Source: Blepharisma japonicum
Taxonomy: Eukaryota > Ciliophora > Heterotrichea > Heterotrichida > Blepharismidae
Reading direction: 5' to 3'
Length of the DNA stretch: 64,000 bases
NCBI GenBank assembly: GCA_949751835.1
Contig: CATKHK010000045.1
Span: 124,001-188,000, forward strand
Below are positions 7,748 through 64,000 of this stretch, piece after piece (the first letter of the stretch is position 1; every line of letters starts with the position of its first letter). The notes beneath the pieces are model-generated. The model did no database searches. It was not told where the DNA came from and saw only the letters and a list, made by a program, of their open reading frames with translations. Position numbers and translations under genes: made by a program.

Positions 7748-7792
7748 TAAATATTTATATAAAAATATTAATTTATATATAAAAATCATAAA

Positions 7793-35675: not shown

Positions 35676-38429
35676 AGTATGCAAAGTGTAACCAGGAGGT
35701 CATGCCTCTTGGGATGTAATGTAAATTAGTATATGATAAAAAATAAAAATTCAAAAAATATCTTCCAGAAATTGAGTAAATGCTTGTTAAAGAAACTCTG
35801 CATTCTAATTTTTGATAAACTAAGAAAAATTATGATGCCATCGAATATTAAAGAGTGCTTATTTGATGCCTTAAATTCTCACCATTTTCTAGGTATTAAA
35901 GTTTTAAAGAAATGTTTGAATTCTTCAGTGAATAATGGATAGGTATTTTCGATATGTAAATTCAAATAAATTTAAGATAAAGATAATGAATTCTCATTCA
36001 CATAAAAAAATAGTAAAATTATTTGTACCTGCCTTTTATTATGAAAAAGAATAAGTGCTCAACTATTTGTTTATTTTTTAATTTGAAATTTCTGAACTCT
36101 TAGAGGAGAATGTATTCCAAATTAAAAGTATAATTATGAAATCCTAATTCAAGTGGGCTTAAAGTTTTTACTCTCATTTCATCTATCACCCTTTTCATTG
36201 TCAATATTCTTTATCTTTTAAAATTTAATAATTTTCAAAACTTTTTCAATACACATCATCACTTTAATTAAAATTAAGTGATTTCCCTGAGTCTATCATA
36301 AATTATTGGCTAATTTATTAAATTTCTTTCATTTTATCCAAAAAACCAAAGTCACTTGTTCATTTTTTTTTTAGTTTTCCTTATTCAAAATCTCAATAAA
36401 GTCGCGATGTCTAAAAATATCAAGCCTATCATAATTTTATAATACTTCTTATGAATAAGCATATTTTCAATTTTATTTCATTTAAAATAAAAATAATTTA
36501 AATGAACAATTCAAAAAATTAACTTTCTGAATGGCACCTAATCTTAAAATATAAATTCCTATATTTTCTTTAATTGGATTTTCAATCTAGTTAGAATAAA
36601 AATTTATAAATTCAAAAGGTCAGTTATTTTTTTTTGAAATATAATTTTTGAATAACAAATTAAACTGAGCTTTTAGATTTTCTTTCAGAATCCATAAAAA
36701 ATATCCAAGCTAATATTATTTTTTAAAAAATAATTCTGATTATAAATTTGGGATATCTAAATATTAAAGATCATTTTGTTCAGTATAAAAATAGATCGAT
36801 ATATAATCAGTAAAATATTCAAGTTTCTCATAAATAATGCAAAATATCTTTTATCTCTGTAATTCAGCTGTTATTATATGAAATGGCAGTTCTTCTTATA
36901 TACGATATACTGAATCATGTGAGTAAAGGTAATTAGAGATAAAGCGTTGTAGGGATGCTTATTATTTGAATTTTAGTGACACCAAAATTCAATATTGCAA
37001 AAAGTATTTTGCTAGTTTTATGCAGGGCGCTTTTAGAAATCTTACCCTAGCTCATATTAGCTAAATATATCGATGCATAATAGCTGTCAGTTTTGATAAG
37101 ACTAATCTAAAATTCTCCATAATTTTCATTGATCAGTATGTTTCTTTTATATTTCCATATTAATAACCAATTAATATATATAAACTGATATGGGTTTGCA
37201 AGCCAAATTTCTGAAACATCAATTTTAGCTACTTAAATAAGGCTTTATAATAAAAGAGACTTACAAATGGCGTCATTATTCTGTATAAAGGGGCATATGC
37301 CTTATGGAGAATAAAGAATTTAAAGTAAGAAAACAAGACCTAAAAAATGAGTTTGTGAAAATACAAAAGAATTTTTTCAATGAAATAATTATAAAATATA
37401 GTGTTATAGCAGCTTATCCAAAATTTTTTAGAAATATTCAATATCGAATTATTAGTTTAATTAATTTAATTAAGTACATTAATTATTTAAACATAAAATG
37501 GCTTTTTTGAAAGGCATTTCCTACATTAGAATTGCAAAGTTAAATTGCTTTTAAATTTATAATTCTTTTTTTGCTGATACAGAGGAGCATCAATGGATTA
37601 TTTTAACCCTTTAAGGAGTTTGAACTTCTACTTATTTTATGGAAGGCCTCATTATTTATTGTTTTAAGGTAAGCGAATAATTAATATATGGGCAAAAAAA
37701 ATAATAATTAACATTGAAATATACGCCTATAGGGATCATCTTCACTCTTATTAATGGATAAAGCTTTTTTAATGATCTTTTCTCTTGACTATATTAAAAT
37801 AATAATCAAAGAAATGGATTTTCCAATACTGTGCTTTGCTTATAAGAAATTATTCAACAATAGAAGAAATTCATAAATATTAAATATACAAAAACATAAA
37901 TAAATTGCTAATTGCATTTAATAATGCTAATATCAATTTATATGAAGTAAAAGTATCTGATCAATCGCGTATATATTAAAAATTATACTCTAATGATAAA
38001 ATCTTTACATTATCAATTCGTCATTATTTTTAAAACAAGAAAGCTAGTTATTAGGTAGGCAGATAGAATGGTGGATTTTATGTTCATTTATATAATTTTT
38101 CTTTAGCATATTCTAGATTCTATTTGATATCGAAAAGCATTCAAACTTAGATTGATAGTTTAATAAAATCACTTCAAATTTTTGCAAATTTTATTTTCAT
38201 TTTTCTGGCCTAAGATATTAAATATAATTATCCTATCTTCAATAATTTATATAAATTTATCTTATTTCTAAAGTTTTTAATTATCTTAGTGCGCCCCTTA
38301 ACTGTATTCTTTGTAATTGTCTGGTTCAGTAATAGCAGCGTTAAATGCTAGTTCATTTTTTTTATTCATTGAGAAAAATCATTTTTTTATAAATTATTTT
38401 AATTACTTATAATATAAACATTCAATATC
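35676..38429. other. AT-rich desert between MGC copies 3 and 4
   Basis: 2.75 kb, the widest gap in the array. Short frames at 35733-35942 and 37304-37510 show no motif or compositional support and are not called. Confidence 0.4.
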
Positions 38430-38657
38430 ATGGGTTGTGGAATTTCTCAAAGAAGCTGTTCAAAACTGAATCAAGGAAAGGACTATGACAAGCCTGCTTA
38501 TTACCTTAGTATACCGACACCTAAAACAAATCCTAACTCTCCTAATCTTGATCAAAAATGCAAATTTTCAACCTTAGTGGCTCACTTCGAGTACAAGATT
38601 AAAGGAGCTGAGTATCAGATTATTGTTAGGAAGGTTACAAATCATGAAAGAACTTAG
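38430..38657 (+). CDS. MGC small protein family, copy 4 (divergent)
   Basis: A 75-residue protein beginning MGCGISQRSCSK. The DTSL motif is lost (DYDKPAYYL sits there). The C-terminal block is recognisable: FEYKIKGAEYQIIVRKV, but the T/S-P end is replaced by TNHERT. It may be evolving fast or under relaxed selection, though the frame is intact. Confidence 0.7.
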   Translation: MGCGISQRSCSKLNQGKDYDKPAYYLSIPTPKTNPNSPNLDQKCKFSTLVAHFEYKIKGAEYQIIVRKVTNHERT

Positions 38658-40814
38658 TGTAAATTACATTAATATATTTATAACTTGTATAAAATTATAG
38701 TCTCTCTATTTTGCAGAGCTTAAATGCTCAGAATCATATCCTTTCAATAGAATAGTAGGATAATTTGGGGAAACACTAATTAAATTTAAGTTATTCAGCA
38801 GAGAATTATTTATTTAACCCCAATATTTTCTTAATGGATGCCTTGCCTAAAGATTTGGCTATGAGCCACCATTTTACTAGGCAAGAGCAGATAAATCTTA
38901 TCACATCAAAGAATATTTGATTCAGATTACGGGAGTTACAAGTTTCATTTTCTTCCTGTAGCAGAGGATAAGAAACCTAGGAGGAGCTGGATTTCATAAT
39001 AATTTGAAGATTATAAAAACTCTAGATATAAGTTATTCCGTTTTTTAATCTGCTTTTATATTTACAAATGAGCGTGAATATATTTAAATAAAAAATATAA
39101 TAGCCAAAATTTTCTAAAACTGTTTCAACTTTTGCTATTACTATTATTATCTATTATATATTTTAAATCGAAAATAACCTAAGCTAATAATTAAAGAATG
39201 TAATTTAACTTAATCATTTTATGAATTTTATTTTTAGTTCCGGCCCAATCTTGCTTCCAAGCTCCTGATACCATGGATGGATGAAATATTTCACGCTGTG
39301 AGCACTTCTTCCTTACCTTATCATCTCCGATATTGAGTTGGTAAACTATGGACTTCTGCGTACCCAGGGTGGAGGAGTGCTAATTTAATTTATTAGGAGA
39401 GACTTAGTATTTCGAGTGCTGAAGTGTGTTCCCAACAGTGACTAGAAAAGAGTTGTTCCAATAACCTTGCCAATTAACATCGTTTTTTGAAGAGGATGAC
39501 TTCGGGACCCTAAAGGAGATTTCAAAATCCATTTTCACACATAGGAACTAATCCAAAACTCCAAATAAACATATTTTGCTTTCTTTGAATTTTGGCTAGA
39601 TTTTCTCCAAGAAAATCAAATATAGTGTATTTAATCCAAATTTAGTTTTTGATTTAGAATTTGAAAGAATTTTTATATATTTTACTTTAAAATTAAAAAT
39701 ATATTTGAATTTATTCTTTACTTGTTATACTTATTAAAAGACACAATATTTATATAAGAGGCATTTTTATAAAAATATATGAAGTTTTTCCAGAATTATT
39801 AAAATGTGATTCGAGCTTCTAATAATAATATTTTAAACATATGAAAGAATTAAGATTTTAGGTCAGATTTAACGAGATGATCAATGATTATTTTATATAT
39901 ATAAATTTGTAACAATTGTTTAGACTTATTGAGCACTATGTATATAAATCTAAAGGAATGTTAGCCTAATTCTCCTTCATTTTTTATTTCAAAATTTGGC
40001 ATTCTTTACAAATTTTTATCATAAATCTGTAAGCATGAAGATGTGGAGAAACTGTTTAATAATTAGATATGTGCAAAGTTTATAATTTTGGTTTTATTCT
40101 ATAAGCATTAGGCTAGCTTTTTAAGTTTTGCAACGCTCTTTAGGATATAGCTATAGTCTTTTTCATTTTATCTTTAGTCTTTTAACCAAAATACTTGATT
40201 TGGGTTTAAAATGAAATAAGCACTGATTGAAACATGCTAAATTAATATAAACTATCTAAGCTTGCTATCAAACATTCTATTTCTAGAATATTCTTGCTAA
40301 ATTACTGTCCTTTTTATGTTTTTACTTGTTGAATTTTTGTATTCAAATATCATTATTTAAGCAACTTAATTAACATTTGGATTTTGAATATAAGAATCTG
40401 TATCCTCATATTGAAAAAAAGAATAGAATATATGATTGAATATTAAATATTCTAAATTAGATTGTAATGTTAATTTATGGCATTTTTATTCTTTATATAC
40501 GAGCAAAGATAATTTTATAAGTTTGGCTCAGAGATTGATTGATAATCTGCGGACATAAACCTATACTTAAATTGAGTTTTATAAATTAATTTTAGGTTTT
40601 ATAAGCAGAGGAAAGAGCCTTAAACTATGATATATTTCTAAATTTTTTGAAAAATAAAAGTTTTAATATCAATGATGCTTCATTTTGACAGCTTAAAAAT
40701 TAAAAGTTCAGCCGCAAATTTAAGCTTACCTTTGGCCTTATTAAATTAGAGAAAGTATTTTAAGATATATTTATTAGTTAAATGGCAACAATTAATACAA
40801 TAAATCAATAAACA
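38658..40814. other. AT-rich desert with two GC-richer relics
   Basis: 2.2 kb between copies 4 and 5. Two patches are clearly richer in GC than their surroundings: 38830-39000, with a 45-codon frame starting MDALPKDLAM (38834-38971), and 39240-39530, described separately. The rest shows nothing. Confidence 0.4.
39233..39520 (+). pseudogene. Possible decayed gene fragment (DUSP-like?)
   Basis: About 290 bases of unusually high GC for this desert. On the plus strand, with TGA as Trp, a 50-codon frame reads LLPSSWYHGWMKYFTLW and then ISDIELVNYGLLRTQGG before a TAA. The spacing W-Y-x-x-W-x-x-Y followed by I-S-D-x-x-L resembles the start of a DUSP domain of ubiquitin proteases, and downstream RRDLVFRVLK could be its degraded second half. 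The minus strand is also open over part of it, so strand is uncertain. It is probably a relic; the family guess is weak. Confidence 0.3.
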
Positions 40815-41039
40815 ATGGGCTGCGGAATACCATCAAAAAGACCACATGAAAAAAAGAGCATAGAAGACGACGGAGATACTTCCTTAATAGATCATTTAGA
40901 GCACTCAGAATCATTTTGCGTACAAACCAAAATTAACCGTCCAGAGAACAACTCTTTTCATTACAAGATCCAAGGGACAAATTACAGAATTACAGTGGCC
41001 CTTATACAGACTCCTAACAAATCTTTAGTGATGTCTTAG
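40815..41039 (+). CDS. MGC small protein family, copy 5
   Basis: A 74-residue protein beginning MGCGIPSKRPHEKKSIEDDG, then DTSLIDHL and the C-terminal block FHYKIQGTNYRITVALIQTP. Cleanly matches the family pattern including the T-P end. Predicted dual N-terminal acylation. Confidence 0.8.
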   Translation: MGCGIPSKRPHEKKSIEDDGDTSLIDHLEHSESFCVQTKINRPENNSFHYKIQGTNYRITVALIQTPNKSLVMS

Positions 41040-42449
41040 GAGCCTTGACATATTAAACCAATGTTCAATAGCCTTAACTTAAATTAATTACATATGTAAA
41101 TCTTCCCAATCACAAAATCTAATTGGAGAAAAATACTTAAAGATTTTAAATTCTAAGTAAGCTCGTTGATTAATGCACATTAGCTGATATAATAAAATAA
41201 ACAATAATCAGAACTTATAAGAAAGCTTTGGTATCAAATCTAAAACAATTAAAATTTGCTCTCATCAAATGATGCAGGTTATAATGGCGCTACAAAATAT
41301 TAATAATCGTATTTTATTTATCGATAAAACAGATTCTCAAAGAAATTAGCCTCTAAAATCATGCTAGCTATTCTAAAAAAATTTATATGCTATAAAATAA
41401 TACATAGACATCATAGGTATCAAATTTTCATAAAATTGGCCTATTCCAATTTATCTTATTAATAATTGGCATTCTTTAAAGCTAATCTGGTTTTATTTCT
41501 TAGGCAGAAATAAATAGAAATAAGATAAAATTTTGATCTTTCTCAAGCAAAAGATAAATTTTAATTGTTTGACAGAATCAAATTTCAAAATAAATGGAAG
41601 ATGGCAATTTTAATTTATTTTTAAGACTTCAATTTAAATAAAATGCATATTCCTTTAAGGCAATATGCGCAAAATAAATAACTACTAAAGCAATGAGATG
41701 AAAATTTTTGAAGTATAAAACTATATCATACACTCAATTTTATCTGTGATGATACCTCTTCTGTGATCTTTAATTATAATTTTAGTGAATATAATATCAT
41801 CACAAAGAACTTTACCTCAATAATTAATTTTTCTAGATATTAAAGCTTGCAGAATAAAATGATTTATGGTTTAAATTTCATAATCGAATATTAAAAATAA
41901 TTATGCTTGAATTGCCAATTTTTGTATTGGCAGAAATTTTATAGTTATAATAAAATTTTAAACAATTATGTTGATAATTTAGATCATGCAATAAATAAAA
42001 AAGATTCCATATTGATATTTAAATAAAATTTTTTAATTTTACTTGGATGAAAATTTAATCTCTATGGCAAATTCAAAATCTCCAATATAAAGGATCCTTA
42101 TTTGATAAGTATGTAACTTTCTATCATTAGCAAACCATACTTTGATGAATTTTAAAGAATACCGCAAACTGGCGTCCCTTTCAATTTCGAAAATAATAGA
42201 AAATTCCTTTTATTTCTCATTGATAAAATTTTGAAATTTGTCTTTGTGGTTCTGTTCTAAATAAAATTTAAGATGGTAGTTATTCATTGATAATCATTGA
42301 GGCTAAAGATAAGTATAAACATTATTTAAGCAATTTTGTGAATGAATAATCATTGATATCGTTTATATATCACTTATTACTGTTCTGACATTAATTATAA
42401 AGCTTAATTGTTTTCCATTCCGCAGTCATTACTTTTTATAATTATATTA
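41040..42449. other. AT-rich desert between MGC copies 5 and 6
   Basis: 1.4 kb with no supported gene, RNA or repeat. Confidence 0.4.
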
Positions 42450-42671
42450 ATGGGTTGTGGAAATTCAAGAAGAATATTCAGAATCAAAAATTGTCAAGAC
42501 GAAGGGGATACATCATTTCATGATTTAAGGATAAACATAAGTCCTCCTCAGATGGAGCAATCTCCTGAATTATATGGAGCCGATCAATTTGCATATGAAG
42601 TTAATGGAACGGCATATAAGATAACTGTTGCAATGATCAAAACGCCTGATGGATCCCAGGTAATATGCTAG
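42450..42671 (+). CDS. MGC small protein family, copy 6
   Basis: A 73-residue protein from the ATG at 42450 (MGCGNSRRIFRIKN), chosen over an in-frame ATG 42 bases upstream because all other copies start MGC. GDTSFHDL replaces DTSL, and the C-terminal block is FAYEVNGTAYKITVAMIKTP with GSQV. Closest to copy 7 in the block. Confidence 0.8.
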   Translation: MGCGNSRRIFRIKNCQDEGDTSFHDLRINISPPQMEQSPELYGADQFAYEVNGTAYKITVAMIKTPDGSQVIC

Positions 42672-43219
42672 ATTATGTACTCTACATGAATATTTAATAA
42701 TTCATTTGCTTTTGACTGAATAACTTAAAGTAAATTGAAGAAAACGCATAAATGTTTTTAATTTCTATTTAAAATTGCTCCTTCTGTTGATTTGTGGATG
42801 GAAGATTATTTCACCGCTATATAAAATAACCCTTTTTATGGAATGACATTAGGTGTTTAAAGCTGGTTAATTATTTATTAATATATTGCTTATTATTCAT
42901 ATAATATAAAAGCGCTGTTATAGACTCTTTAATATTTTTGTTCCTTATGAAAATCAATAGAGCTTTTTTATTTTATTAATTTTAAAAAAAACTTTGATAT
43001 TTTTGTTAGCATTTTATACACTAGCCTAAGTTTAAAAAATCATAAGAAACTTTAAAATTTATATTTCCATAATTCTGCCAATTATTTTCTTAGTCTTATC
43101 GTTTGAATTCAGCCATTTTATGAAATTCAGGCTATAAAATCTCCACCTCAAACTTAAAAAACTTCTAAACAGTTTCACAATAATTAAAATGGTCATAATT
43201 TTATAATTTAATTCTAATA
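42672..43219. other. AT-rich spacer between MGC copies 6 and 7
   Basis: 548 bases, the shortest spacer in the array; nothing else visible. Confidence 0.4.
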
Positions 43220-43447
43220 ATGGGTTGTGGTTTACCATCCAAAACTTTCAAACGCAAAAGTAGCCAAGATGAAGAAGGAGATACTTCCCTTCAAGAACAA
43301 TATATTTCATCTCCCTTCAAACTTGACAGAAACCCTAATGCTAGCATTTCAAAGGATGGTCCTTTTGACTATAATGTCAAAGGGACAGCTTACAAGATTA
43401 CAGTCGCACTCATTTCAACCCCTGAACGGTCTATCACAAGCAATTAA
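43220..43447 (+). CDS. MGC small protein family, copy 7
   Basis: A 75-residue protein beginning MGCGLPSKTFKRKSSQDEEG, then DTSLQEQY and the block FDYNVKGTAYKITVALISTP. It is near the family consensus and closest to copy 6. Only 548 bases separate it from copy 6, which suggests a recent tandem duplication of this pair. Confidence 0.8.
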   Translation: MGCGLPSKTFKRKSSQDEEGDTSLQEQYISSPFKLDRNPNASISKDGPFDYNVKGTAYKITVALISTPERSITSN

Positions 43448-44394
43448 GACCCTGAAATTATAATAAGTCTGTTCTATGATTAGGGCAGCTTTAATTAATG
43501 CTAATAAGGTATGAGTAACATTGAGCTTTAAAAGAAATTCGTTAGATGGCTAATATAAAAATAATGCTTTTGTTAGAGTTATTCTATTAATATGCGTTCT
43601 AGAAATTAAAGCAAGCTAATTCCAGAGCATTTAGTGCAGTCGGCCATTAGCCAGAAAAATCATTCATTAACAGATCAATTTTGCTTTATTAAGATTTAAA
43701 GAATATTAAGCATATTTAATGGTCCTCTAATTTTGATTGGTTTTGAGATCAAAAAATTTATTTTGGAAAGAGAGGAAAATATATTGCTGTTCATTACTTT
43801 TATAATTGATTCATAGTTTAATTATTTAATTTTTCAACAACTGATATTAGAACAAAAATGTCTAATAATTTACTTTTACATAGAGACTCAAGCCAAAATA
43901 ATACATTTTTGGCAAGAATAGATTATTTCATTCTAATCGAAAGCTAATATTTCATAGAAATTTAATTGACTAGTCCACAACATTTGATGTTTAGCAATGA
44001 ATTATCCTCGAAATTAAATGTATAAATTAGCTTTGCCTTTGAACTAAAGTTCTTGAACAAGATGAAAACGGTTTATTGCCGCTCTATACTGATTTAAACT
44101 GGTTCCTAATTACAAAGTTAAATACATAATGATATGGATGATACCATTTTTAACTATCTCACTAAATGTTGTTAGAAGAAATTGCATCAAAAATTTTCCA
44201 ATTACCAATAAGCCTTGACTACAAATAAATAGCTAAAACCCCTTCTTTTATGCAATTTTATATTTTTATTTTGTATTTTTATTAGAGTTTCTTAAAATAT
44301 TACATACATAAGGATTATAACTAAGAATTTAGAATATATGAATAATCTTAAAATAATAGTAGATTCTTTATTATTAAATTTAAAGAGAAGCGTG
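43448..44394. other. Intergenic stretch closing the desert
   Basis: 947 AT-rich bases without a supported gene. An in-frame ATG at 44338 could extend the next gene, but the MGNG start at 44395 is preferred. Confidence 0.4.
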
Positions 44395-46354: not shown

Positions 46355-49300
46355 CTAATATATATCCTCAAATTCCATCAACCTTGCCCTTTTTTCAAGT
46401 TCTTCTCCAATATTCACAATTTCCTCATAAGTTGCCAATGAATGAGAGATCATAACCTCTTCTGAAAATTTCATTCCAAATAGCTGAATTTGCTCGTAGG
46501 AAACTGACTTATCCCAAAAGTCTGATTTCGAAATATACATTTGTATTGATAAATTTGGATTTAATTCAGCAGTCAAGCATCTCATTATAAATCTCATCAA
46601 AGCGTCTTGAGCTTGGAGTCGAGTTGGAAGTCTAAGCCCATCACACTCTTCAATCAAATTACGAAGAAGGCTTCTAAAATATTCTTTATTATCTGATTTC
46701 TGGAATTCAGCTCGAATTAGATCTTTCATATAAGGAAAATAACAAAATTCAATATACTCATATAAAGCTACAATATTAAATAAGCTTATCTCAGCCAAAG
46801 CATGGCGGCCTTTGATGAATTCACTTATTTTGGCTTGATTCAGTCTTTGGCAAAAGTCACTTATCGATTTTTCAGGGTTTTCTTTAGAGTTTTTAAGATA
46901 GCAAAGAATGTAATCTAATGAAGAATAAATTTCTTTAAGTATAATTTGATACCCTCTTTCTTCTTTTTCTTTTAATTCTTTAAAGAAAAGCTTTACTTTG
47001 ATTTCAGTTTCCTTGCTAAAAGGCTGTTGGTGTATCAAATTATGAATTTCTGATATTAGTCCTGAGTTTTCGTCTTGCATATTTAATAACTCAAATTGAT
47101 ATTGAATTAGGCCAAGCTTTGACTTATCAAGGTACTTCTTTGTTAATAGAGAGTTTGCCAAATAGGACTGCAATTTTTCAAAATCATATATAAGCTCTCT
47201 CCCTTTCCCATATTCAGGGTTGTTTATTGAAGATCTGTTTACTATATCTGGGTCGTCTAATTCGCATGAAAGTATATGATTTTTCATAGCATTTTGAATT
47301 GGATACATCTCACTACTAGAGCTTTGGGAGTCATTTGGCTGATTTGATGGTAAAGCATCTTTCATTAGACGTAATAACTTATTATGGCGTGAAGTTAGTT
47401 CCAATAATGCAGCGGTCATATACATTCCTCCTCCTACTTCTTTATTGTCTACTAGGAAATATGATAATGGTGAGCTCTCATCTTCAAACTCTATTGATTC
47501 AAGTCTTTTGCATTCATAGTAAAGCTCTTCAATTCCTTTGTTTTTCCATGCTTGCTTAAATTTTCTGAACAGTTCTTTAATGTTTTCATTAAAATATATT
47601 GCATCTTTAATTGTCAAGTTTCTAGCTTGGTCTCTTGCAATTTTGTGATTATAAATTTCTAGAAGGTTATTAGTTAATTCAATAATTGGGTATAAGCTCT
47701 CAATGGTTTTAATTTCATCATAATTTTTAAAATATATGCTTAGCAAATTGAATTGTTGGCTTGGGTTGTGAAACAAAAAATAATTTTTCATTTCCTCAGC
47801 TGAAGGCTTGTCAATTATTCTGAATAATCTTAAAGCTGGATACTTTGGCTCATATATACCTTTTAGTTCATCAAGAAAATCAGAGATGCCCCCATTTCCA
47901 AAAGTTTCGCAAAAGTTGTTTTTATAGTCCATTATGACAGATGATGGGCTCATATGCTTATTTATAATTTCTCTTTCGAAACACTTTTCAAAATTATCTC
48001 TGATATCTTTTGTACTAGGTTCGACATTAAAAGCTTCAATTACTTCAGGGAGCTTTGATATAATGCTAAATATTCATATATTTGATTCATGTATGCTCAA
48101 CAGAGAAGAAATTGATGTAAAATCATTCTGAATCGCCTTTCATAAAATGCTTTCACATTCTAAATGAGACTTATTTATTGCTGAAGCAATATCCCCGATC
48201 TTTAATACATCTAATTTCATTATCACATAAAGGCATCCACTAAGAATAAGATGAAGGGATTCTGATGTAATTGGCTTCAATTCTCTAATCAGCTTTACCC
48301 CATTAAAGCTTCCATAATTTTTGCATCCTTTGCCCTCGTTTACTTCTTGTCTAGCTATTGAGTCCCCTAAGAACTTCAAAGCCTCCTCATGTGATAAATT
48401 CACATGCCCTTCTCTAGGAACTGGTGTATGGCCTATTCCACCTATTTCTCGTTTGCAATATGGACAAATTCCTTTTTCTGTTGGCCCTCCACAAGCATTC
48501 ACAAAATAAAGAAAATCGCAATCACTTGAGCATTTATAGGTACTCCCTTTAGAATATGGAGCCCTCCAAGTGCTAGATATTAGCGAATTAAAATTTTTAA
48601 GTGTATCTTTCAAGTAGTGCAACATAGCGCTTGGCTCAGAACAAACAATATATAAATTATTGAAACGATTTTGGAAATCATTATCTATTGTTCCTGATTG
48701 TGTGAAAAAGAGACTGGAAAGGGGGTTTGAGAAATTTCGATAAGAAAGGACAAGAATTGAAATAGAGCATAAAATTAAAATATGTTCTACTTCTTCAATC
48801 GGCTGATTCTTGTGCAAGCAAAGATAGCTGCTGCGATGAAAATTGTTAATAAAAAAATATAATAATTGATAAAGCTCCTTTCCAAGATTTGAAAGGATCA
48901 ATTCTTTTTTGTTTGTAAACCAATTTTTAACTGAAGGATTTATTTGCTCTCCTAAAGAATGCTTAATAAATACCTCGTTCATAAAAGCCATTGCAATCAC
49001 AGTTCTGGATTTAGGGTTATCTGCATTTACGATTTTTTCGTCTAATATATTTTCTCCTTTATCATTCATCAATAATTTTAATAGATAAACAATTTCTAAA
49101 TAAGATTCTTTCATACTTGGGAAGTAAGGCAAAATAGACCTTTCTTGCTCGTTTTCTGATGGTAAACTTTTCTGAATTCAAGTAAGTTCGTTATGCCGTT
49201 CAATAAAGCCATCAAAATTCTTTGATTTGTGAATGGTTTTTAAACAGTAAAGCCTAAGAGTATCCCCAAAGTTTGTTTCTAAATTCAGCTCTCCATTAAT

Positions 49301-52300
49301 ATTGTTCAAAAACTTTTGTGCCTTCTCGTCAGAGTTCTCAAAATTACTGTTTTTTGGATCAAAATACGTTGCATAAATTTCAAGGCTTTGCTTAATATAT
49401 GCAATTGAAAATAGTCTTATTAAGTGTGGAAATTCGGAAGGAAGTATACAAAGATTCTTGTAATGTTGAGTAAAGAAAAATTTCTTTTCCATGAATTTAA
49501 ATATATTGCTGTCTTGTCTTGATTTTTCTTTTTCATTCTCTTCATCTATATACTTTCCAATAAAATCGCATAATAATATAGTAAACTTGCTTTCAAATCC
49601 ACATATTTCAATAGTTTTTTCTATTTCCATTGAATATTTGCTATTACTGAAATCTTCTGTATTAAGCATTCTTGTATTTAAATCACATTTTATGTTCATA
49701 TAATTCACTAAATTACTGAATAACTCTGATGAATACTTTCATAATTCGCTTTTCTCTACTAGATGAGCTATTTTTAGTACATATTTTTCATCCTGTTTAA
49801 GTAAAACACTCAAATAATAGCTTTGAAATTCCAAGGATGAAGCTGTTTGATAACTATCACTTGATGAATTATGATTTAAATAGCTAAAAATATATTCTGC
49901 AAAATCTTGATTGTAAAGAAAAGATATATCACCCTTCTCAAATAACTTGGAGACCTCAAAGACTTTTAATAAATTATCTTTTGTTTCATATTTAGCCATA
50001 TAGGTACTAAAAGTTGCCCAAAACTCAAGATGATCTAATCTTCTAATATCAAAAACCTCAATATTTTCAATCTCTTTGATAATACTGATTAATTTTCCTG
50101 TATCTGATGGGTAAGATTCTCAATTTTCACTGCAGATTTTATTTATCTGGTCTGGACAAGAACAGATTATTATCTCATTCAATATATCACTAATAAATAA
50201 CTTTCACTCTGGCTGGTATATCTTATTAGAAAATTTTGATTCTTCTTCTTTGTCATCTTCGTTTCTACTAGATCTGTTCTTAATTTTTTCTAAAATTGAT
50301 AAAGATTTATTGAGATAACTCTGGACCGCATTAATTTTTGTTTCTGGTGAGTGATAAAATAAGTTAATTGCATAGCAAATAAGAACACAAATAGGTTTTA
50401 ATTTCATAAAAGCGATAACTTTTTCTTCTAGGGAGCTCTCATAGATTGTAACTAGCCTTAGCAGATTAAAAACAAAATCTTCGAATTCTTGATTGATTAG
50501 ATTTTTATTTAATAAAAGCTTGGCTAGATCACTCAGAAGCAGCTCTTGAAGTTCAAGATTTTGATTTAGTGCGTCAAATTTATTATAGAAAAACGATTTT
50601 TGTTTATATAGTTCACCAATGTTATTCTGAGTTATTGACTCCTCATAAAGAATACCTTTTTCTCTCCAATTTTCACATAAACCTTCGATAATTTTATATT
50701 CTGCTTTAGAAAATGGGAAATTTAATACTAGTTCCAAATTAAGCAAATTTCCTTGGTTAATATCTTGCAGTTTTATTTCCCCAGTACTGATATTTCGAAA
50801 ACTATCAAGCCAAATATCACGTTTAATTGCATTAATTTCTTTGTTTCCATTTTCAAAGTAACTCATAAGGGCAGAATTTTCTTCAAGAGAATATAAAATC
50901 AGAGTTAAAACTTTTTCAATTTCAAAAGAAAGAGCTGCCTTTATTGCAGTTTCTAGCTTATTTGAATCTGAAACAATAAGAGAGCTCATGAAAATCTGGT
51001 ATTTCCAATCTCTAACATCTTCAGATTTTATAATTTCACTAAAAACTTTTTCTTTTAATTCTTTTACAAAATCCTCGTGTTCAGAAACACTGTTAACAAT
51101 TAATGCAATGTGATCGTTTAAATTTTCTTTATTTGCCATTTTTTGGGCATACTTAAATTTCAATATGCATTTTTCAATAAAGCTACTTAGATTGTCTTCA
51201 AAGTTCATAATAAGATTTTCAGTAATAAGCGTTTTAGTATCTTTCATTAGTTTATCAGATATATCAAAAGGCTCTATTGATAGATCATCAAACATTTGCA
51301 TTTTCCATGACTCAAACAATATAATTGCATTATCATATTTAACATTTCTTTTCATATGAATAATAATACAAATATTTTTCTCTATCTTTATTTCGTCCTC
51401 AAGCTTATCTATAATAAACTTTATCAGTGATAAATGTTGGCTTTCTTTGGAAAAATCAAGCTCTAAAATGTATATTTCTTTGTCTTCAATATAAAACTTT
51501 TGTAGATCTTTAGCTAGATCCTGCTCAGATTTAAAACTACTTAATTCTTTCACAATCATTTTGCTTTGGTTTTCTTGCTCATATTCGTTTGAATAGTAAT
51601 TACTATCATAAGTAAACGCAATAAGTTTGCTAAATTTTCCATTTATTTTCGAATCATTTAAAATAGAATGAATGTGATCAGGAAAATTGCCAGAATGTAA
51701 TTCATTTCAGTCACTGATAATAGAAATCTTCTCCTCCTCTTCCATATAGTTTACTTCAAGCAGTGCTTTAATGTCAGAAGGCGCCACTCTTAACAACACA
51801 TCCTTGCATTTTTTTATTGACTCATTTTCATCTGAGCAATAATTAAAAAGTACCAATAATGCAATTGTTTCTGAGCTATATATAGGGAATAAGTGATTTA
51901 TTGTATAAGGCACTTTGTTTCCTTCTTGAAAATAAAATATTCTTTTTGCCCATTTTATTAAGTCTTCTTGGATTTTTTTCTGTTCAGTAGTCAAAATTTT
52001 ATCAAGTGACAAGTTGTGTTTTTCAAATCGATTTAAAAAGGGGGCATCAGCTTTAAGCAAAATGTCTTTGTCGTTATCCATGAAGACAATAGCATGGAAA
52101 TTATTATTCACATAGCATCTGGGGTTAAATAAAGCTCCTAAAGCAATTCTACAATATTTTCTTTCTCCTTCCCCTTCCCCTGAGACCGCGAAATTTTGAT
52201 TGAATAAATCATATAAAGAGCTATAAATATGATCCATATTTTTAAGAATAATTGAAATTCCTTTTTCCATATAGAGAATAATGTCACTAAGAGACCTAAA

Positions 52301-55300
52301 GCCGTATTCCTCTTGGCTTATATCATCTTTTAATTTGCTTCCAACAATTATTCTCCTTTCTAAAAGAGAGTGCAAATACTTGTCAAGAATAAATGAGACT
52401 GCGTCCACCCTACCTATAAGCATAAGATAGCGTGAGCTAGGGTCTTTTAAATTCTCTTTGATAAGATCTAATATATTGATATTCGGCTCACAATAAGGAT
52501 ATATGTTTTCAAATCCATGAAGCTTCATAAAAATATTTCCCATTTCTCCTGCTGCTCCTTCTTTGCCACCAAAATTCCTTTCAATTGCTTTCTTAACTGT
52601 ACCTGCAATTTCCCAAGGCTCCAAGAAATTATTATTGACTAATTGCTTTGACACTTGCTTTATCAAATGATAAAAATCTCGAAGCCCGTAAAAATCAGCA
52701 TAATTGGTATCCTTGTACTGATTCTTAAATTCAAAATAAGACAAAGCCAAATGTTTGATTACATTTTTGTGTATATTATGATTACCTCCAAAAGATGAAT
52801 AAATGCTATTTGCAGTATACACTAAATCAGACTCATCTGGATCAGGTCTTGCAAGATAAAGAGCTCGGTTCATTTTAGATGCGTCAAGTCTTCAATTAGA
52901 AATTCCGACAAAACCTACTGTGACATTTTCTATTTCAAGTAAATTGTGAAGAACTTTTAATGGATTATGCTTTGAAATTTCAGCAAGCCCAATCTCATCA
53001 AATACTATAACTGGTAACAAGGCAGTTTTATCAGTATCATAATATTTTTCCGCTCTTTTAAATGCTTTTACGATCCCGTCTGATGTGCAGGAATCTGAGC
53101 CTTGAAATGGTACTTGAATAAGCTCTGGAAGGGTTTGAAAATAAGAATCAGTTGATTTTTTGCCCCTAAGATGGGCAAATATTAATTGGATTGATAAAGT
53201 TTTGCTGCATCCAGGCTTACCACATAAAAATACTGGAATTTTATTTATAATGCAAGGGATAATTGTAAAGATATTTTCCTTTAAAGCTGTATTAAATGCT
53301 GTTCCTTTAGGCAGTTCCATCCTTGCAAGATAGTCATTTTGCTCATTTTGAATTATTGCTAATATTCTCTCTACAAAAATCATTTCATCTTTAATAATTC
53401 TACAAATCTCCTCCAAAAATTCAAATCTTTTAGTTTGAGTACTATGTCTTAAATAGTAGCAATGGCAAAAAGCTAAAATTCCTGCATCAAAGTCAGGATC
53501 ATTATATCTATCTTCGATAGCCAAATTATATTTTTCCAGGTTTTCTAGATATCTTTTATCTCTATGAGCATTTTTTTCTACAATTGAGCTCTTGAATCAT
53601 TTATATAATTTGATAAATCTCGAAACATCTCTAAGACTAACACTGCTGGCATCCTCAGACCTTTGAAAATGCTTATGAGATAAGCAAATAAAATCGACAA
53701 AAAGATCAATATAGTTTGATTTAATATTTTTAAGCATCGCTTTAACATATTCCCTCTCATCATTATCAGTCAAAGCTCCGTAGTCTCATATATACTCAAT
53801 CATAGTTTCTGGAAGTGGCTTAACAACATGTGAGAGTTTGCTAATTGTTTTAGTGTCTTTTTTAATTCCAACATTTTCTTGGTAGTTATGGCTTTTAGTT
53901 GATAGCCTATAAGGGTTGCAGGCGCCAATAAATACCATATTTTCAGGCAGTTTCCTTCCCTCAAGTGTTCTGTTGCAGATTATTTCACAGATTAGCCCGA
54001 CACTTTCAGTTGTATTAAACTCATCAAAGAAAACCCAGAGTTTCTTTACTTTTATATCCCATATTACTGCCTCCTCAATATACATCTGTGACTGTAATAT
54101 TGGTGATTCTAATTCTTTTTTTATTTCACTAGATGTGGTGCCAGCATGAATACTAATTTTTACAAGCTGGTCTCCAAGAACATTTTCCACAAAAAATTGG
54201 ATTAAAGAAGTTTTTCCACAGCCTGTTTCTCCCATTATAATTATAGGTATATTTGATATTGCTCTCAAATAAATTAAATTCATTTTTAAAAAGTTGTCTG
54301 GAGTAATAACATATTGAGAGTCTATGTACATGAGTTGCAGATCTCTTTCCGCTCTGCAATAAGTTTGGAGCTTCAAGAGAAAATCATTGTGAGACATCGT
54401 TTGATAGTTTTCAATTGTGTATGCTCCAGATTGTATAATTTTATTGAGCTGGTTTACTGGGACTCCACCTTGCTTTATAGCTATCAGAGCATTATGTTGA
54501 GTAAAAATCACCTTCTTGATATTTGCTGGGACTAAACTTGGATCTCTATATATTGGAATCAATGAACCATCTTCTAGAAAAACCATTGTAAAGTGGTTTG
54601 ATGATTCTCATTTCAAACAACATTTGAATCTATCTGCTAACTCCTCATCCTCAATAACACTAGTATTTGCTTGTATCTTTTGAGAAGTTTTCAATTGTTG
54701 ATTTCTAACGTCATCAATACATTTTGAAGTGAATTCTTTAACAGTCAAAAGTATACTTTCAAATATCTGGGATCTTAATGCATCAAGGTCAGAAATCAAG
54801 GCACTCAGCCCATTTGCAGCAAAATCACTTTTCGTTTCTTTTATGCATCATGGTTCAAAAAATCCACAATTTCCAAAATTTCTGCATAGGCTTGCTAAAA
54901 TTTTTATCATAATATTTAGCTGAATATAAGTTATTTTGCTATATTCATTCTCTTGTCTAGGCAGCAAGTAAGTGTCAAGCAAAAAGCGAACTTTATCATC
55001 GCCATGGACTGATAAACCTTGGTCTGTAATTTCTGAAATTGATTGGCTGTCAAGTAATTTTCTATGATATAAGTCAAGATAAGAGCAAATAAATTGTAGA
55101 CTATCTTTTCGATTCTTGTGGATGATCAATCTATCTAAAGAAAATTTTTCTATATGAAAATGGTTGATATAATGAAGACATTCTAAAGAATTTAAAAGTA
55201 TATTTGAATATGTATTGGAAACTTCAATGAAAATTTTTATCTCTCTTGGTATTATAATAATACTTTTTGTGTAATTTAGTGTTCGAAAAATGCATAGATT

Positions 55301-58300
55301 TATAAGGAATTCGTTTAGCAGATAGCTGTTGCTTACATAACTTAAATGAAGATGCAAAGTCATTGACTCAGAAATGGATGGGAAATTTTGGCAAAGCTCA
55401 ATACAGTCAACTTCTCCAGCTATTGGGAATGTTTTTATTATTTCATCTAATTTTTTCTCAGTGTCTTCATCATAAGGGCTATAGTTTTTAGCTTCCTTTA
55501 CTTGCTTTCTTATTTCTGTTGTTTTGCCAAGTCCAGCCACCTCGGAAGTTACTACAGTTACACAATCTTTATTAATTTCCAAAACTATTTCTTTTAAATC
55601 TTCATCACTCAGCAGTTTACTGTCATTTAAAATAATCACTCTTGTCGATTCAGTATTTTTAAAATATGATGATAGTGCAGACGTTTTATCGGCTGTTATT
55701 ATACCCAATTTGAATCGTATATCTCCTACTTTGTGGAAACACAAATCTGCAAATAAAGATTTAAATTTATTTTGATTCTCTAAAGCTAACTCTTCACAAT
55801 TCACTAAAAGATAGAGCTCGTGTCTTGGATTTGTGAAGCATCTGTATAAAAACGCAAAGAGTTCATTCCAAGAGGTTTTATATTGGCAGAAAAAAATTTG
55901 ATCTGCTCGAGGCATTGAAGAGCAAGAATTGAAATAAATTGAAAATGTGCCTAGTAATATTTTGGAAGTTTCAAGATAAACGACTTCTCCATTATTTATG
56001 ATGAATTTGTTTCTGTTCCTCGGGGAATAACTTATATTTTCATCGCTTTTCTTAAGATTAGGGAGTTTTTCCAGTGTTTCTCCCAATAATAAAAGCCTTT
56101 CAGATGCATTATTTTTATTTACACTTCGTAAATCTGTTATTTTTGCATAGGATTTCCCCATATATTCTAAAAGGCTATTAGCCTCCTTTTCAAAATCTTT
56201 TTTATCATCAATTAAATAGCCTTCAAGCCACCAAAACTGCTGCCCATGTAGAAAAGTAAGAAAATAGTTACTACTATATTTATCAGACAATGAAATTTCC
56301 CAAGTTTTAAATTGCTCTGATAACTGTTGTTCATATTCAAGAACACTTGAAATATCTCCTTTATTAATTCTAAATAATTCGGGAATTTCTATTAGAGGAT
56401 ATCCATAAATTCGGAGATTATTCAGATTTGCCAAAATCTCTTGAATTGAAGTAACTAGGTTTTTGAATCCAGGAAGAAGAATCACATCTGGATCTTGAAT
56501 TTGGGCCGCATCCAGAGTATGAAGAAGCAATGATGCTCGCTCTTTGAATTCAAGTAGGCTTGACAAGTTAAAATAATGTTTTCGATTTTTTAAATATTGC
56601 AAATGCACATCATAAGAATCTTCAACTAAAATTATACGAAATTCTGACTCTGTTATTATTTCAACAATTTGCTTTTTCTTGGCTTCTTCTTTGCAATTTA
56701 TATTTACATGCAGCTCTTTTATTCCTGCTAGTTGAGATCTACAATTTTGCAGCTGAGCTATAATTTTATCATATTTTTTATCAATCCTTCTTTGGCTAAA
56801 AATTTGGCAAAACCTCTGATAATCATGGAATTCATTTCTAATTTCTCGAATAGACTCCCATAAATTTTCCAAATCCATAATTGCTTGAGTATTAGCGTAT
56901 AAGTCGTCATAATCATTTACACTTTCTTTCAGTTGTAGTATATCACTTTCATTGACACTGTTCAAAAATGTTATCAATTCTTCTGATTTTGAAATCTCAT
57001 TTAAGGTCTTAAACAAAATTTTAAAAAAATGAATTTTTCAGGGTAGACGTGATTGCTCTGTGTGAAATACACATATATCTTTGACTCAGAATGCACCGCG
57101 TTTGAAAGGCTATAAATGGTTTGGGAATAATGGAGGCAAGACATTGAAGGGTGTTGGACTTTATGTGGAAGAAATGGCAGAAACTGAGAGACTGCGGCTG
57201 AAAAGAGTTGATATACTTGCTGGAAGACCTTGTGATAGTCGAGGCATATTTGCCTGTTGAAAGTGGCACCCGAGAGAAAAGAGAAGAATTCTATGACGAA
57301 CTCACGCAGCTTATCACTGAGCTCAAATATACGTACAAATCGCTAATCCTAATGTCAGATATGAATGCACATATTGCAGGTCAATACTCAGACACTACAA
57401 ATTCAAATAAGAATTACTTCTAGATATGGCAAATAGTAATGGTATGCAACTAATGCTCACTGATGGCTTTAAGTTTGCAGGGAGGAATGGATTCGCATCA
57501 TAATATATTATGCACTTAACACTAGAGATTTATCTGGACTAATTACTGAAGTTCTAAGGGTTTTGGAAGTAGGATATTCCTTGGATCACATACTGATATT
57601 ATTTGGCATGAAAATCACTAGTAGTGAGCATAAGAAAAATGAAGAGCGCAAAAGGGGAATATTCATAGTGGATCTTCTGCAAAATACGGCCAAAAGAGAA
57701 AGATATCAGCAAGTTTTGAAAAGATTCTTTATAAATTGCATGGCATGTCCGATGTAGACGAAATTCTCGCCAGATGAACTCTGGCAGTAAAAGAAACAGC
57801 AAGACTCACGTTGATAAGTCTGGAAAGATGATGTCAAGATAAGGCCACGATTTTTTCCACGAAACTATTAAAATTTACAGTCAGCGAAAACTCTCCGGAA
57901 TGAAACGATATCAGCTCTTGAAGGCAAAAACATTGGTGCTTATGTTCATTTAATGGAAAAACATAAAAATGAGTGTCAGAAATTTAAAGAGGAGAAAGCT
58001 GCAGACCAAAAAAACTTGGCTCTGGAAAGATTGCCAAAAAATAGGCTTAGCATAAATAATGTCTAGAAAATGCACAAGGAAGTGAAGACAAGGATTTCCA
58101 AAGTAGAGCTTATCTTTACGCTGAAAAGAAGGAGGAACTGACCAACTGATAGGAGAGCATGCACTCAGGCAATAGTGAAATAGGGAAAATAGATAAAAAA
58201 ATTCAGAGCAATCGAATATAAGAAAACATGAAATTTTGGAGCTCATGAAATGCATTGGAAATGGGAAAGCATGAGGACCTCACGAGATTCCAGGAAAATT

Positions 58301-61300
58301 AATTAAATACTGAGAATCTGCTCCGGCAGATGCATTAAAAGTCATGTTCAGTAGAATATGAGCGAGCAATAAAAATACCAATATCTATGAAAAAGGCTTA
58401 CATAGTACTGTTACCGAAAAATAAGGACAGCAAAAAACCGCAAGACCTGAGGCCCATTACTCTGTTAAACTCGGTGTACAAGCTTTTTGATAAAATGGTG
58501 ACTGGGAGACTTCGAAAAGATATGAAAATAAAGAATATGATTCATCAATCCCAGGCAGATGCTTTGCTGGGCAGATTTTCGGTCTTCAATCCATAATCGC
58601 ATATAGGGAGAAAACTGCAAAATCATAGCATTATTTCGGTGGTTCAAAATTTACTAATAACTGCAGGCATATCAGGCATCTGACTGAAAATCCAAGGTGC
58701 GTTTTTGTGGAGAAAAAGAAGATGAAATTCATGTTATTGAGATATGCAAACTATATAGGAAAGATAGAGAGGAACCTATTATGAGTTTAAGAGAAATATT
58801 GAAAGAAAAGTTGGATGAAGTAAATTTGACGGAAATGGTTTTGTATGGCTAAAGGTTCGAGAAAATAGTGCTAGAAAATTATCAAGGAAAGTTGGAACCA
58901 TAAATAGATATATTAGAAAATCTATTGGAGGAATCGTTAAGACTAGGGTAATTATGTTAGAAAATGATGGCCTAAATAATTGGTGATAACCGCTAAGTAT
59001 TTGTATTTGTAAGGTCTTAAAAAATATTTCTTCATTACCTATTTTAAGATTGCTATTCAAGCTTTCTTTTGCAAGGGTAGATAGAGATAAAAAAACACCC
59101 AATTTTAGAAGGAAAACAGCATCAAGGTTTGGAAATAAATTTTCAATAATTGATATTTCTTTTTGAATGTAGTTGAGGTCTTTAAAGATTGCTATAAATT
59201 TTTCCATAGGATAATTATCAAATGCGGTAAAAAGAGAATTGAGTTCATTTACCATTTTATTTTTTGCTTCTGTGCAGATTTTTGCTATGTTTGCTAAACA
59301 CAAGGGAGATGCTTCTAATTCTTTTTGCAAGAAATAATGGATATATGAATGAGAATGCAAAACGGAAGCTAAGCTTACAGCCAGATCTTTTATTTGAGAA
59401 ATGGTTGGATGATACTTAAAATCTTTTAAATCTATATTAGAAAAGCTATGCAAGGATGCTTTATATGCTTCTTCTACATCAAGCAGATTTATGCAGATTA
59501 CATCTATAAAAGCTTTCACATGACTCATTTCTTCACTAATAAAATCCATCTTTATCAATAATTCCTTTATTTTTTCCATAAAATCAGGCCTATTCTTATT
59601 TCCTGCGATATCAAATGGCGCATTTATATATTTTAAAAATGCAGCCCTTTCTTCTTCACTTTGGTATTTTATTATCGTTAAATCATCAACTTTAATTTCT
59701 CCATTCATTATTTTTAAGGCTTCTTTTTCAAAAAAACTCATCAAATTGTTAAAATATTTTAAGTTTCTAGAAGTATAGTACTTATGAGATTCAATCAAAG
59801 CGTCTCAGAATCTCTGAGAAGACGGATTCTTATAAAGATTAATTTTAGTTTCTTTTTCGGGTAGCTCAGCAACTCCAGATAAGGCTAGCTTTAATACTAA
59901 TAATTCTTTTAAGAGGTCGCAATGTTTATACTTTTTTTGCAGCTCAAGTATTTTCTCCGTTTGAGAATCATAAGATCATGAATGATTATAATTAGAAAAT
60001 TGTGTTTCTTGGATGAATTGGACATAGCTCGTTTGGAGAGTTTCAAAGCCATCAATAATTGGAGCGAGTTCATAAATATTGTATAGTATTCTTTTACTAG
60101 ATTCGTAGATGAATACTATCGCAGCATTACTAATGGTGTTGATAATGTCTATAGTGGTTTTGATTTCAAGGCTTTTTATTATTTTAATTTCCTTTTCTAT
60201 TTTTTTGATAGTTATTTCTATGTCAGAATAGTTGTTGATTTTAAATTTCATTAATCAATTTTTGAATAGTCAGCTGCAGTCTATATTGAAGTTTTCTATC
60301 AGCTCATGGGGCTCTAAATTAGAACTTTTTAAAAGTTTTTCACACACGAAGTCTGACTTCATAGAAAAAAGCAATCTTTCATTATAATAAAGCTTATAAA
60401 TTTTCTTAAAGTAAACCAAATAACTTTTATCAAAATTTTCTAAGCATTTCCTGATTGTTGGATTAACAATATTTTGAAAATTTGAACAAAAAAAGAAATG
60501 TTTGAATTCAGGCTCTTTATTATCTAATATTTCCAACAAATCAGCGACTATGTCTATTTTCAATGGCTGCTTTTCAAAAAATGAATTGATAACCCTCATT
60601 CAATCTTGCCATCAGTTTGCTTTTTTATCTTTTAATAAAAATGCTTCATGTAAAAGTTCTGTGAATAATAGGGGCGACTCAGAACATGCAATTATTTTTT
60701 CATAAATTTCACTTGAGCCTAATGATTTTATAATTAATTGTAAAGTTTCAAATTCATCTTTATTAAGAGTGAGGTTCAATGAATTTATAATTTCTATGAA
60801 TTGATGTAAAATTTTAGATTTCTGATCTTTATCCTCAATCTTATTAAGAATCAAAACCCATTCTCTTTCTCCTGCTTTTTTATTTAATGCTAAAGTATGC
60901 CCGATTCCTAAAATTGCATTTTTATAAAGGGATTGCATTTTGAATTTTTCAAAGAAGTTTTCGAAATTTTCAATTCGTAGCAGAAGACTAATTCCAGAAT
61001 CCAAGCTGCATTCTTGATATTGAATGGCTTTAGCTTCAAGGCAGCCCAAAAGTGCTAAAAATATATATGAAAATTCTTCAGAGTAATTTGAATTTGTCTC
61101 TCTAATAAAATAATCTAAAACCTGGAGAAATTCAATTGCTCTTTGCTTTTCAACATCAAATTTAACTTTTTGAAATTTCATATTAAACTGCTCAATAAGA
61201 GCTGGGAAAAGTATTTCTCATTTTGCATTTTGAAAAATATATAAAGAATAAAAAGTTAGCTGCTCTATTGGATTGAGCACAGGTTCGCCATCTGGACTTT

Positions 61301-61835
61301 TTCATTCAATTCCAAACCAGGATTTCTTTACAATCCTCGTGCTGAAAACAAAAGCATGATTTCAGCTTCCAAAAGATCTGAAAGTGTCTTTTTTTTCATA
61401 AAATTCATCATCTGAATTACTTCTTCATAGTTTTAATTGGAATAAATTGGAATGATCATTTCTCTTAGGGATATAAGTGACTTTATAAAGCTTTATTTTT
61501 TTATTCAATCTAAATTCAGCGTTATCAAAGTTTTGATACTGAAATTTCACTTCTCGGATTTTATCTCCAAATTGATGAATCATCATCTTAAATTCGTTTT
61601 GAGAGAATTGATGATTGTCAAAAGCATAAAGAATGTAAACGAACTTGCATTCTTTTAATTCTCCTGTTTTGGAGTCCAAAATATATCCTTGTGATTCAAT
61701 ATCTTTCTGAGACATTTCACTATATAAAAGGGATTGTCTTTCTAGGCCGGGCTCTGCTTTTGTTTCTTCAGTTGGAAAGGGTTGGCGTTCATTAACTTGA
61801 TTACCTTTGTTGCCTTTCTTACCAGCTGGACACAT
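46355..61835 (-). CDS. RNF213: RNF213/mysterin-like giant AAA+ E3 ligase, interrupted by a retroelement
   Basis: Once the insert at 57014-59009 and one copy of its flanking 12-bp repeat are removed, the gene is one frame of 4490 residues with about twenty TGA-Trp codons and no intron seen. AAA+ module 1 has Walker A GETGCGKT (about residue 1866, 54209-54232) and Walker B WVFFDEFNT (about 1935). Module 2 has Walker A GKPGCSKT (about 2203) and Walker B VIVFDEIGLAE (about 2276), followed by VGFVGISNWRLDASKMNRA, a signature of RNF213. An RZ-type finger (about 3766-3800) reads CSSDC, NACGGPTEKGICPYCKREIGG, with Cys where others have His. No RING is seen. Human RNF213 (about 5200 residues) is a ubiquitin ligase in lipid and pathogen responses. 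With the insert kept, translation would end at 58779. Confidence 0.88.
57002..57013 (+). repeat. 12-bp direct repeat, left copy (target-site duplication)
   Basis: TAAGGTCTTAAA, identical to 59010-59021. Both copies read TTT AAG ACC TTA in the same frame of the RNF213-like gene (Phe-Lys-Thr-Leu, residues 939-942). Confidence 0.85.
57014..59009 (+). mobile_element. Decayed non-LTR (LINE-type) retrotransposon, 1996 bp
   Basis: Read on the plus strand with TGA as Trp, but with several frameshifts and stops. From about 57040 to 57500 it encodes pieces of an APE-type endonuclease: DVIALCE, then KGYKWFGNNGGKTLKGVGLYV, VIVEAYLPVESG and SLILMSDMNAHIAG, the last containing the D-x-N-x-H catalytic signature. 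From 58387 to 58593 a reverse transcriptase piece reads KKAYIVLLPKNKDSKKPQDLRPITLLNSVYKLFD in two segments and MIHQSQADALLGR. The middle (about 57500-58380) is degraded, the YxDD region is missing and no poly-A end is visible. It cannot be active. It lies antisense inside the RNF213-like gene. Confidence 0.82.
59010..59021 (+). repeat. 12-bp direct repeat, right copy (target-site duplication)
   Basis: TAAGGTCTTAAA, identical to 57002-57013; flanking bases differ on both sides, so the repeat is exactly 12 bp. Confidence 0.85.
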
Positions 61836-62798: not shown

Positions 62799-64000
62799 AT
62801 GAAAACTCAAACAGTAGTCAAGAAGGATAAGAAGAAAAAGAAAAATAGCAAGAATGAGCTCAAAGGAAATGGAAAAATAATTGAATCTGATGGTAAGACA
62901 GATGAAAAATTAACTTTAGAGCATAATGATATCAAAGAAGAGAACGAGCCCACTAAAGTAGAGTCCAAGGATAATATAATATTAGAAGAGTACCAATTGA
63001 GTTTGGGAAAAACAGTTTTGGCTATTTATTCTTTTAGCAAAGCGCAATATTCAAGCAATGATTTGCAACTAATCGCCTTGAAGCAAGATAATTCCACATC
63101 AACTCAAGAGTTTGAGCAAACTTCTTTTAGTTATACGAATCCCATTGATAAGAGAAAAATCAGACTTTATAAAGCACATTATTATTTCAATGATGATAGT
63201 GCTCGTTTTAAGATGAGCTTGAAAAAGCATATAATGCTCTTATCAGATCCCATTTACTATGAAAAAGATGAACGTATTAGGATCTTGCCAGATGAAAATT
63301 TCGCATTCATTTTCGACTTAATGTTTGCTCCATGCTCAAGTTTCCTTAACAAGCAGCCAGCTGGAGTTCCAGTCAAGGATCCATTAATACACCTTATATG
63401 CTATTCTTATTATTTACTTGATCAAAGTGACTGGATTCAGACTATTCCAATTCTTGCTAGACAATTTTTTAGTTTTTACAGGATCCTTAATGCTACTAAA
63501 GATTCCAGTCTAGAAGCAATCAAGTTAATCAACACTGCTATCACATATATAGATCCCAATAAAATTGATGAACGGTCCTCCTATGCAATCTTATCATTAT
63601 TAGGGTGCTTGCCACATAGCATTCATTCTTATCAAATTGCTAAAATTGACAGTATAGATAGCTTTTTTAATATTTTTGGGAATTCTATATTATATACTTT
63701 AGAAGAATTAAAAAATTCTCAGCTTTATCCTGCAGTAACAGGATTAGTGCATATGATGATTTTTTCAAAAATTTCAAAAAAAGATGATTGAAAAATATTT
63801 TTAGCCCAAATAAAAAATACTGAAATAAAAGAAGAAGTCATTGACAAATTTATTGAAAATTCTAAGTCGCACCTTAATTTAGATTTCAATGATTGCGAAA
63901 TCTTATTTGAGATAATCGGAAACTTGGAAGTTAAAAAATTTATTGATTATTCCCTCAAAATAGCATTTTTATGCCAAAATTTCTCTGATTTCACTGTGTT
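62799..64000 (+). CDS. RNF213-like paralogue, N-terminal part (partial)
   Basis: Start ATG 62799; 400 codons are visible before the right edge and the frame is still open. The N-terminus is a Lys/Glu-rich tail (VVKKDKKKKKNSKNELKG). From about residue 68 it parallels the N-terminus of the minus-strand giant: TVLAIYSFSKAQYSSNDLQL versus FVYILYAFDNHQFSQNEFKM, then IRLYKAHY versus IKLYKVTY, and later ILSLLGCLPHSIHSYQ versus FLALLGCLEAKAIQYQ. One TGA is Trp (63789). The two genes are therefore diverged paralogues arranged head-to-head. Whether AAA+ and RZ domains follow is unseen. Confidence 0.7.

Follow-up and report, generated by a model that had tools for sequence, protein, structure and literature searches.

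A decayed LINE between 12-bp repeats in an RNF213-like gene of Blepharisma japonicum, possibly removed from part of the somatic gene copies

The stretch of Blepharisma japonicum DNA analysed here (64,000 nucleotides of contig CATKHK010000045.1, here C45, positions 124,001 to 188,000; called the window, with coordinates counted from its first letter unless a contig is named) contains a giant RNF213-like gene on the reverse strand, which is interrupted by the decayed remains of a long interspersed nuclear element (LINE) lying antisense to it. The 3' part of the gene (46355..57001) carries AAA modules and an RZ-type zinc finger, and the 5' part (59022..61835) has its ATG at 61835 and is collinear with a neighbouring paralogue. 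Under translation table 4 (TGA=W), the two parts form open frames at 46355-57016 and 58779-61835, and under table 11, the same parts are broken into several open reading frames (ORFs). Leaving out the insert together with one copy of the 12-bp repeat at its ends yields a stop-bounded frame of 4491 residues, 4490 of them from the ATG, with no internal stops. The 13.5-kb gene stretch shows no stop, no frame break, and no interruption besides the insert.

The 3' part matches RNF213 chains in the PDB, with a best E value of 7.2e-106, as well as the Pfam families PF20173 (E 1.2e-10), AAA_7 (E 1.8e-9), and AAA (E 1.7e-6). The rejoined gene shows the hallmarks of the RNF213 family covered by this comparison, a giant protein with AAA modules and an RZ finger. 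In this assembly, RNF213-like places form a head-to-head pair on C45, where the divergent neighbour occupies 62799-64000 and C45:188001-198414, and are further found on contigs C20 (three places) and C25 (two places). The RZ finger is found at five places in the assembly, and matches to the AAA region lie at six other places, distributed over C45, C20, and C25. According to the ORF map and alignments, the neighbour starts on the forward strand within the window (62799..64000), runs past its end, and is uninterrupted at the corresponding position.

The insert (57014..59009, forward strand, 1996 bp) is a decayed non-LTR (long terminal repeat) retrotransposon of the apurinic/apyrimidinic endonuclease (APE) type. 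Its alignment to a LINE ORF on contig C6 covers 433 residues, 130 of them identical, with a score of 349, against 46, 45, and 38 for three shuffles, and tblastx to the C6 LINE locus gives an E value of 6e-35. Remnants of the endonuclease (57043..57408, forward strand) and of the N-terminal part of the reverse transcriptase (RT; 58224..58572, forward strand) are recognisable in pieces; they follow each other on one strand, collinear with the C6 ORF, as expected for an APE-type LINE. The corresponding Pfam matches are below the cut-off (PF14529, E 0.0035; PF00078, E 0.0038, restricted to positions 3-41 of a 205-position profile). Two further sub-threshold Pfam matches to the LINE pieces, Mre11_C_bact (E 0.0022) and LcrV (E 0.05), were taken as chance.

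Over 57217-58572 (1356 bp), the alignment to the C6 ORF shows seven frame changes and one stop, the count of frame changes hanging on this single alignment at 30% identity. The first endonuclease piece (57043-57161; score 72, without a shuffle control) adds one further frame change. Past 58572, no more of the RT could be recognised, and the C6 LINE used for comparison is also truncated in this region. The order of the parts and the room left for them, with 437 bp for the remaining RT, indicate that the insert is likely internally deleted and probably 5'-truncated. Two TATTTG units (58998..59009, forward strand) abut the second repeat copy and may be the 3' tail of the LINE; among the scanned LINE loci, a similar pair of units is found at one other only (L070).

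Both ends of the insert are marked by a 12-bp direct repeat, TAAGGTCTTAAA, at 57002-57013 and 59010-59021, which in the gene frame reads TTT AAG ACC TTA; the second copy matches the first exactly, and the window contains no third. Two matches compare with a mean of 0.03 expected, and two or more were found in 0 of 100 shuffles. Across the 45.2-Mb assembly, the 12-mer has 15 matches. A pair 1626 bp apart on contig C95 appears to be unrelated, the sequence there reading by eye, without a family search, as two genes of zinc-finger-like type.

The insert and one repeat copy together measure 2008 bp, which is not a multiple of 3. By itself, the restored frame is weak evidence for the join, because 30 of 59 direct-repeat pairs near the insert (at least 8 bp; one copy in 56017-57016, the other in 58780-59779) also restore it. 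Among the three best repeat pairs printed for the locus, two are other repeats, of 10 and 9 bp, which likewise give long fused frames. More telling are two paralogues, one on C20 (L073) and the divergent neighbour (from 62799 into L075), which align without gaps across the join FKTL|NEIS, so the joined sequence represents the empty site. An exact 12-mer was common to a random pair of 72-bp gene windows in only 18 of 20,000 draws. Given this rarity and the empty site supported by the paralogues, the repeat is best read as a target-site duplication (TSD), in keeping with the variable-length TSDs of APE-type LINEs, and may also serve as an excision boundary.

The initial annotation of this DNA had already described a decayed LINE within an RNF213-like gene, with the same repeat at both ends of the antisense insert, the same reading of it in the gene frame, the same join, and a 4491-codon frame after removal; each of these points agrees with our results.

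The decay of the insert contrasts with the intact state of the gene. For scale, we used one pair of regions, on contigs C186 and C144 (91% identical by blastn; 6.1% substitutions), with the non-coding part assumed to be neutral. Its non-coding and LINE parts contain 255 substitutions and 37 indels whose length is not a multiple of 3, counts that rise to 441 and 47 if the stretch 5400-7900 is included; the estimates below span both versions and take the lesion counts from the C6 ORF alignment. On this scale, the lesions of the insert correspond to about 0.031-0.048 substitutions per site (95% limits 0.013 to 0.10 over the variants), and the absence of lesions in the gene corresponds to an unconstrained time of at most 0.0012-0.0015 substitutions per site. 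An unconstrained gene would be expected to carry about 79-99 lesions at the decay of the insert, and none was found in 4491 codons. Since the insert carries lesions while the gene carries none, either selection on the gene outlasted the insertion or the LINE arrived already decayed, and very recently. The repeat suits both alternatives: it is perfect, as in a young insertion, and at the decay of the insert (3-5%) the chance that all 24 repeat bases stay unchanged is still 0.30-0.47. A three-way comparison with the paralogues, which spans roughly residues 601 to 1298 of the gene and is powerless for recent time, gives 39 changes unique to the gene and 49 unique to the neighbour before the insert (p 0.34), and 28 and 48 after it (p 0.03, the neighbour being faster); the gene is not accelerated on either side.

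The interpretation depends on the kind of nucleus from which the assembly derives. A three-unit CCCTAACA telomere pattern has 168 overlapping matches in the assembly, against 0 for the reversed control pattern. Among the matches listed, the pattern is found on 13 contigs, 11 of them with matches within about 430 bases of an end, while the matches on C17 and C38 were not placed relative to the contig ends; neither printed end of C45 carries the repeat. The TGA=W code and the CCCTAACA telomere repeats agree with Blepharisma stoltei (PMC9942806). In B. stoltei, 39,799 internal eliminated sequences (IESs) are scaffolded on a 41-Mb somatic genome (PMC9942856), a density at which 12-13 would be expected in the 13.5 kb of the gene, where no other interruption is present. 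With telomere repeats at contig ends and a gene otherwise uninterrupted, the assembly looks macronuclear, and a germline assembly would be very unlikely if the species resembles B. stoltei. It follows that the insert entered the assembly as part of the somatic DNA and should be present in at least some somatic copies. The germline-limited element favoured in the initial annotation therefore does not hold in its plain form, and partial excision still fits.

The reading that we favour, while granting it slightly less than an even chance, is that the LINE decayed while the gene stayed under selection through incomplete somatic excision at the TSD. The LINE would have entered the RNF213-like gene by target-primed reverse transcription, as its element type suggests, thereby duplicating the 12-bp target site. 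Selection would then have kept the gene while the LINE decayed, as the lesion counts suggest, with precise removal at the duplicated target site taking place during somatic development in at least part of the macronuclear copies. Here, the TSD would serve as an IES-type terminal direct repeat (TDR), and because removal would be incomplete, the retained form could be assembled. Published findings on B. stoltei are compatible with these steps: dips in coverage at some somatic LINE loci have been interpreted as partial excision, precise removal is assumed for the IESs inside genes, which make up about 70% of the total, and clean cutting is proposed for a TSD whose submotif can serve as an excision site (PMC9942856). 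More tentatively, the LINE may have turned into an intragenic IES, its TSD acting as the boundary for the DNA-elimination machinery, so that the gene would be rebuilt in the soma and the element left to decay in the germline, again with incomplete removal. The direct-repeat bounds containing TA and the open coding frame left by exact removal are features of Blepharisma IESs.

Several observations weigh against excision. TA is found in the repeat at positions 1-2 and 9-10, but of the 12-mers of the gene, 65.5% include a TA and 8.7% have one at the start, so its occurrence is near chance; the leading TA, which the initial annotation likened to the boundaries of Blepharisma IESs, thus carries little weight. 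The presence of the insert in a macronuclear-looking assembly, where a Blepharisma IES should be wholly or almost wholly missing, argues against full elimination, and for B. stoltei it has been conjectured that foreign DNA could escape excision when it lacks a suitable site (PMC9942856). Just N-terminal of the site (59031-59146, gene codons 898-935), 51 codons are absent in frame relative to both paralogues, in three alignment gaps, so the gene is not wholly unaltered near the insertion. Lastly, the insert has a guanine-plus-cytosine (GC) content of 0.361, compared to 0.429 for the less decayed C6 LINE and 0.244-0.263 for five intergenic stretches. Drift from a starting GC of about 0.43 could mean an older decay than the count of frame changes implies, and at 0.2 substitutions per site, a perfect 12-bp repeat would have a probability of 0.005.

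A close rival, nearly as good as partial excision and also possible, if a little more doubtful, is a recent disruption, in which a LINE transcript that already carried the decay was inserted in trans, no earlier than the last 0.1-0.15% of divergence. Such an insertion could be fixed, heterozygous, or strain-specific, and the gene either newly dead or alive on other copies. It fits both the perfect repeat and the open gene, and loss may be tolerated in a gene with paralogues. The initial annotation had argued from the decay of the element against the open flanking frames; this core contrast stands and is now quantified, but decay alone leaves room for a recent insertion, since a copy could have decayed first and then been mobilised in trans. 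Copies 92-97% alike are found in other LINE families of the assembly, but a DNA search with the insert returned the insert itself only, a search that diverged copies can escape, and the RT piece has its closest protein relative at 48% identity. Because the assembly yielded no source, a source copy would have to be germline-only or lost. Moreover, LINEs act mainly in cis. The insert is also not among the matches listed in the genome-wide LINE family searches, and DNA searches with both flanks gave no alternative haplotype, the sole other match being 65 bp of the C20 paralogue.

The remaining explanations are less probable than either excision or recent disruption. Both gene parts are open, with 1018 aa (76 codons running into the insert) and 3553 aa, and could act as separate genes with the insert kept in all somatic copies; this is unlikely, as the stretch from the upstream stop to the repeat contains no in-frame ATG, an ATG first appears 45 codons from the repeat start, 41 post-repeat codons partly conserved in both paralogues would be lost, and the paralogues are continuous across the site. 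A false join of a LINE into the gene during assembly is highly improbable, since the empty form of the site matches two paralogues and a perfect duplication of 12 bp would hardly arise there from a misjoin. Splicing of the insert as an intron would let the gene survive even if all somatic DNA retained the insert, yet no result supports it, none of 13 offsets offers GT...AG ends for an exact 2008-nt removal, and most introns of B. stoltei are 15 or 16 bp long (PMC9942806); we rejected this reading, the least probable of those considered.

To place the locus among others, LINE loci of the assembly were surveyed, starting from 44 family matches (32 and 12, partly the same elements), a survey that misses decayed copies. 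Ten longer stretches (L062-L071) were examined with ORF maps of at least 150 codons, and in none does the LINE lie inside a long coding frame, although four touch contig ends and have short outer flanks there (L063 and L068 end at one, L069 and L070 start at one). The 42 short LINE loci, with flanks of at most 1.5 kb, cannot decide the question. In this small sample of 10, the present locus may be unusual. The stretch L071 on C151 appeared to hold a gene split by a LINE, with arms of 586 and 536 codons, but these are two tandem paralogous genes with a LINE between them; tandem paralogues flanking a decayed LINE (1588-7047) can thus mimic a split gene in an automatic screen. The stretches L064 (C186:10000-19500) and L065 (C144:49500-59000) are collinear, about 91% identical over 9.1 kb, and carry the same decayed LINE, being either a diverged haplotype or a segmental duplicate. 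Elsewhere in the window, 30700-44290 is 13.6 kb long at 25% GC, with no ATG/GTG/TTG-started code-4 ORF over 126 aa and no Rfam match, and a 3-kb sample of it has no second genome copy. Should the gene density here be as high as in B. stoltei, this stretch would be an unusual gene desert.

An open question in ciliates is how the clean excision of new mobile elements from genes arose. In one model, illustrated with cut-and-paste transposons, elements persist as IESs either through a seamless excisase of their own or through a TSD motif open to cutting by the domesticated excisase (PMC9942856). The same paper reports IESs inside retrotransposon genes of B. stoltei. We found no published case of a LINE in a host coding frame whose exact removal at the TSD restores the gene in the portions of PMC9942856 and PMC9942806 considered, the supplements of which may describe such a locus. 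LINEs generate TSDs but lack an excisase. If partial excision is true, removal of this LINE at its own duplicated target site would offer a test of the model at one easily amplified locus.

The locus shares with ordinary truncated LINE insertions the 12-bp TSD, the short tandem 3' tail, and the ordered endonuclease and RT remnants, and differs from them in that the host gene is without lesions although the element has them. As in the non-LTR retrotransposons of B. stoltei, APE and RT remnants are found in a macronuclear assembly; there, partial excision is reported at some loci (PMC9942856), whereas here excision is a proposed reading. Direct repeats bound the IESs of Blepharisma, with TA present in about three quarters of cases and short T/A alternations as the commonest TDRs (PMC9942856). 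The present insert differs from them in its 12-bp repeat, its retrotransposon content, and its position in a macronuclear-looking assembly. It resembles them in having a TA-containing direct repeat, in its intragenic position, in the frame restored by exact removal, and in its size, which lies inside the reported range (maximum 7251 bp; PMC9942856).

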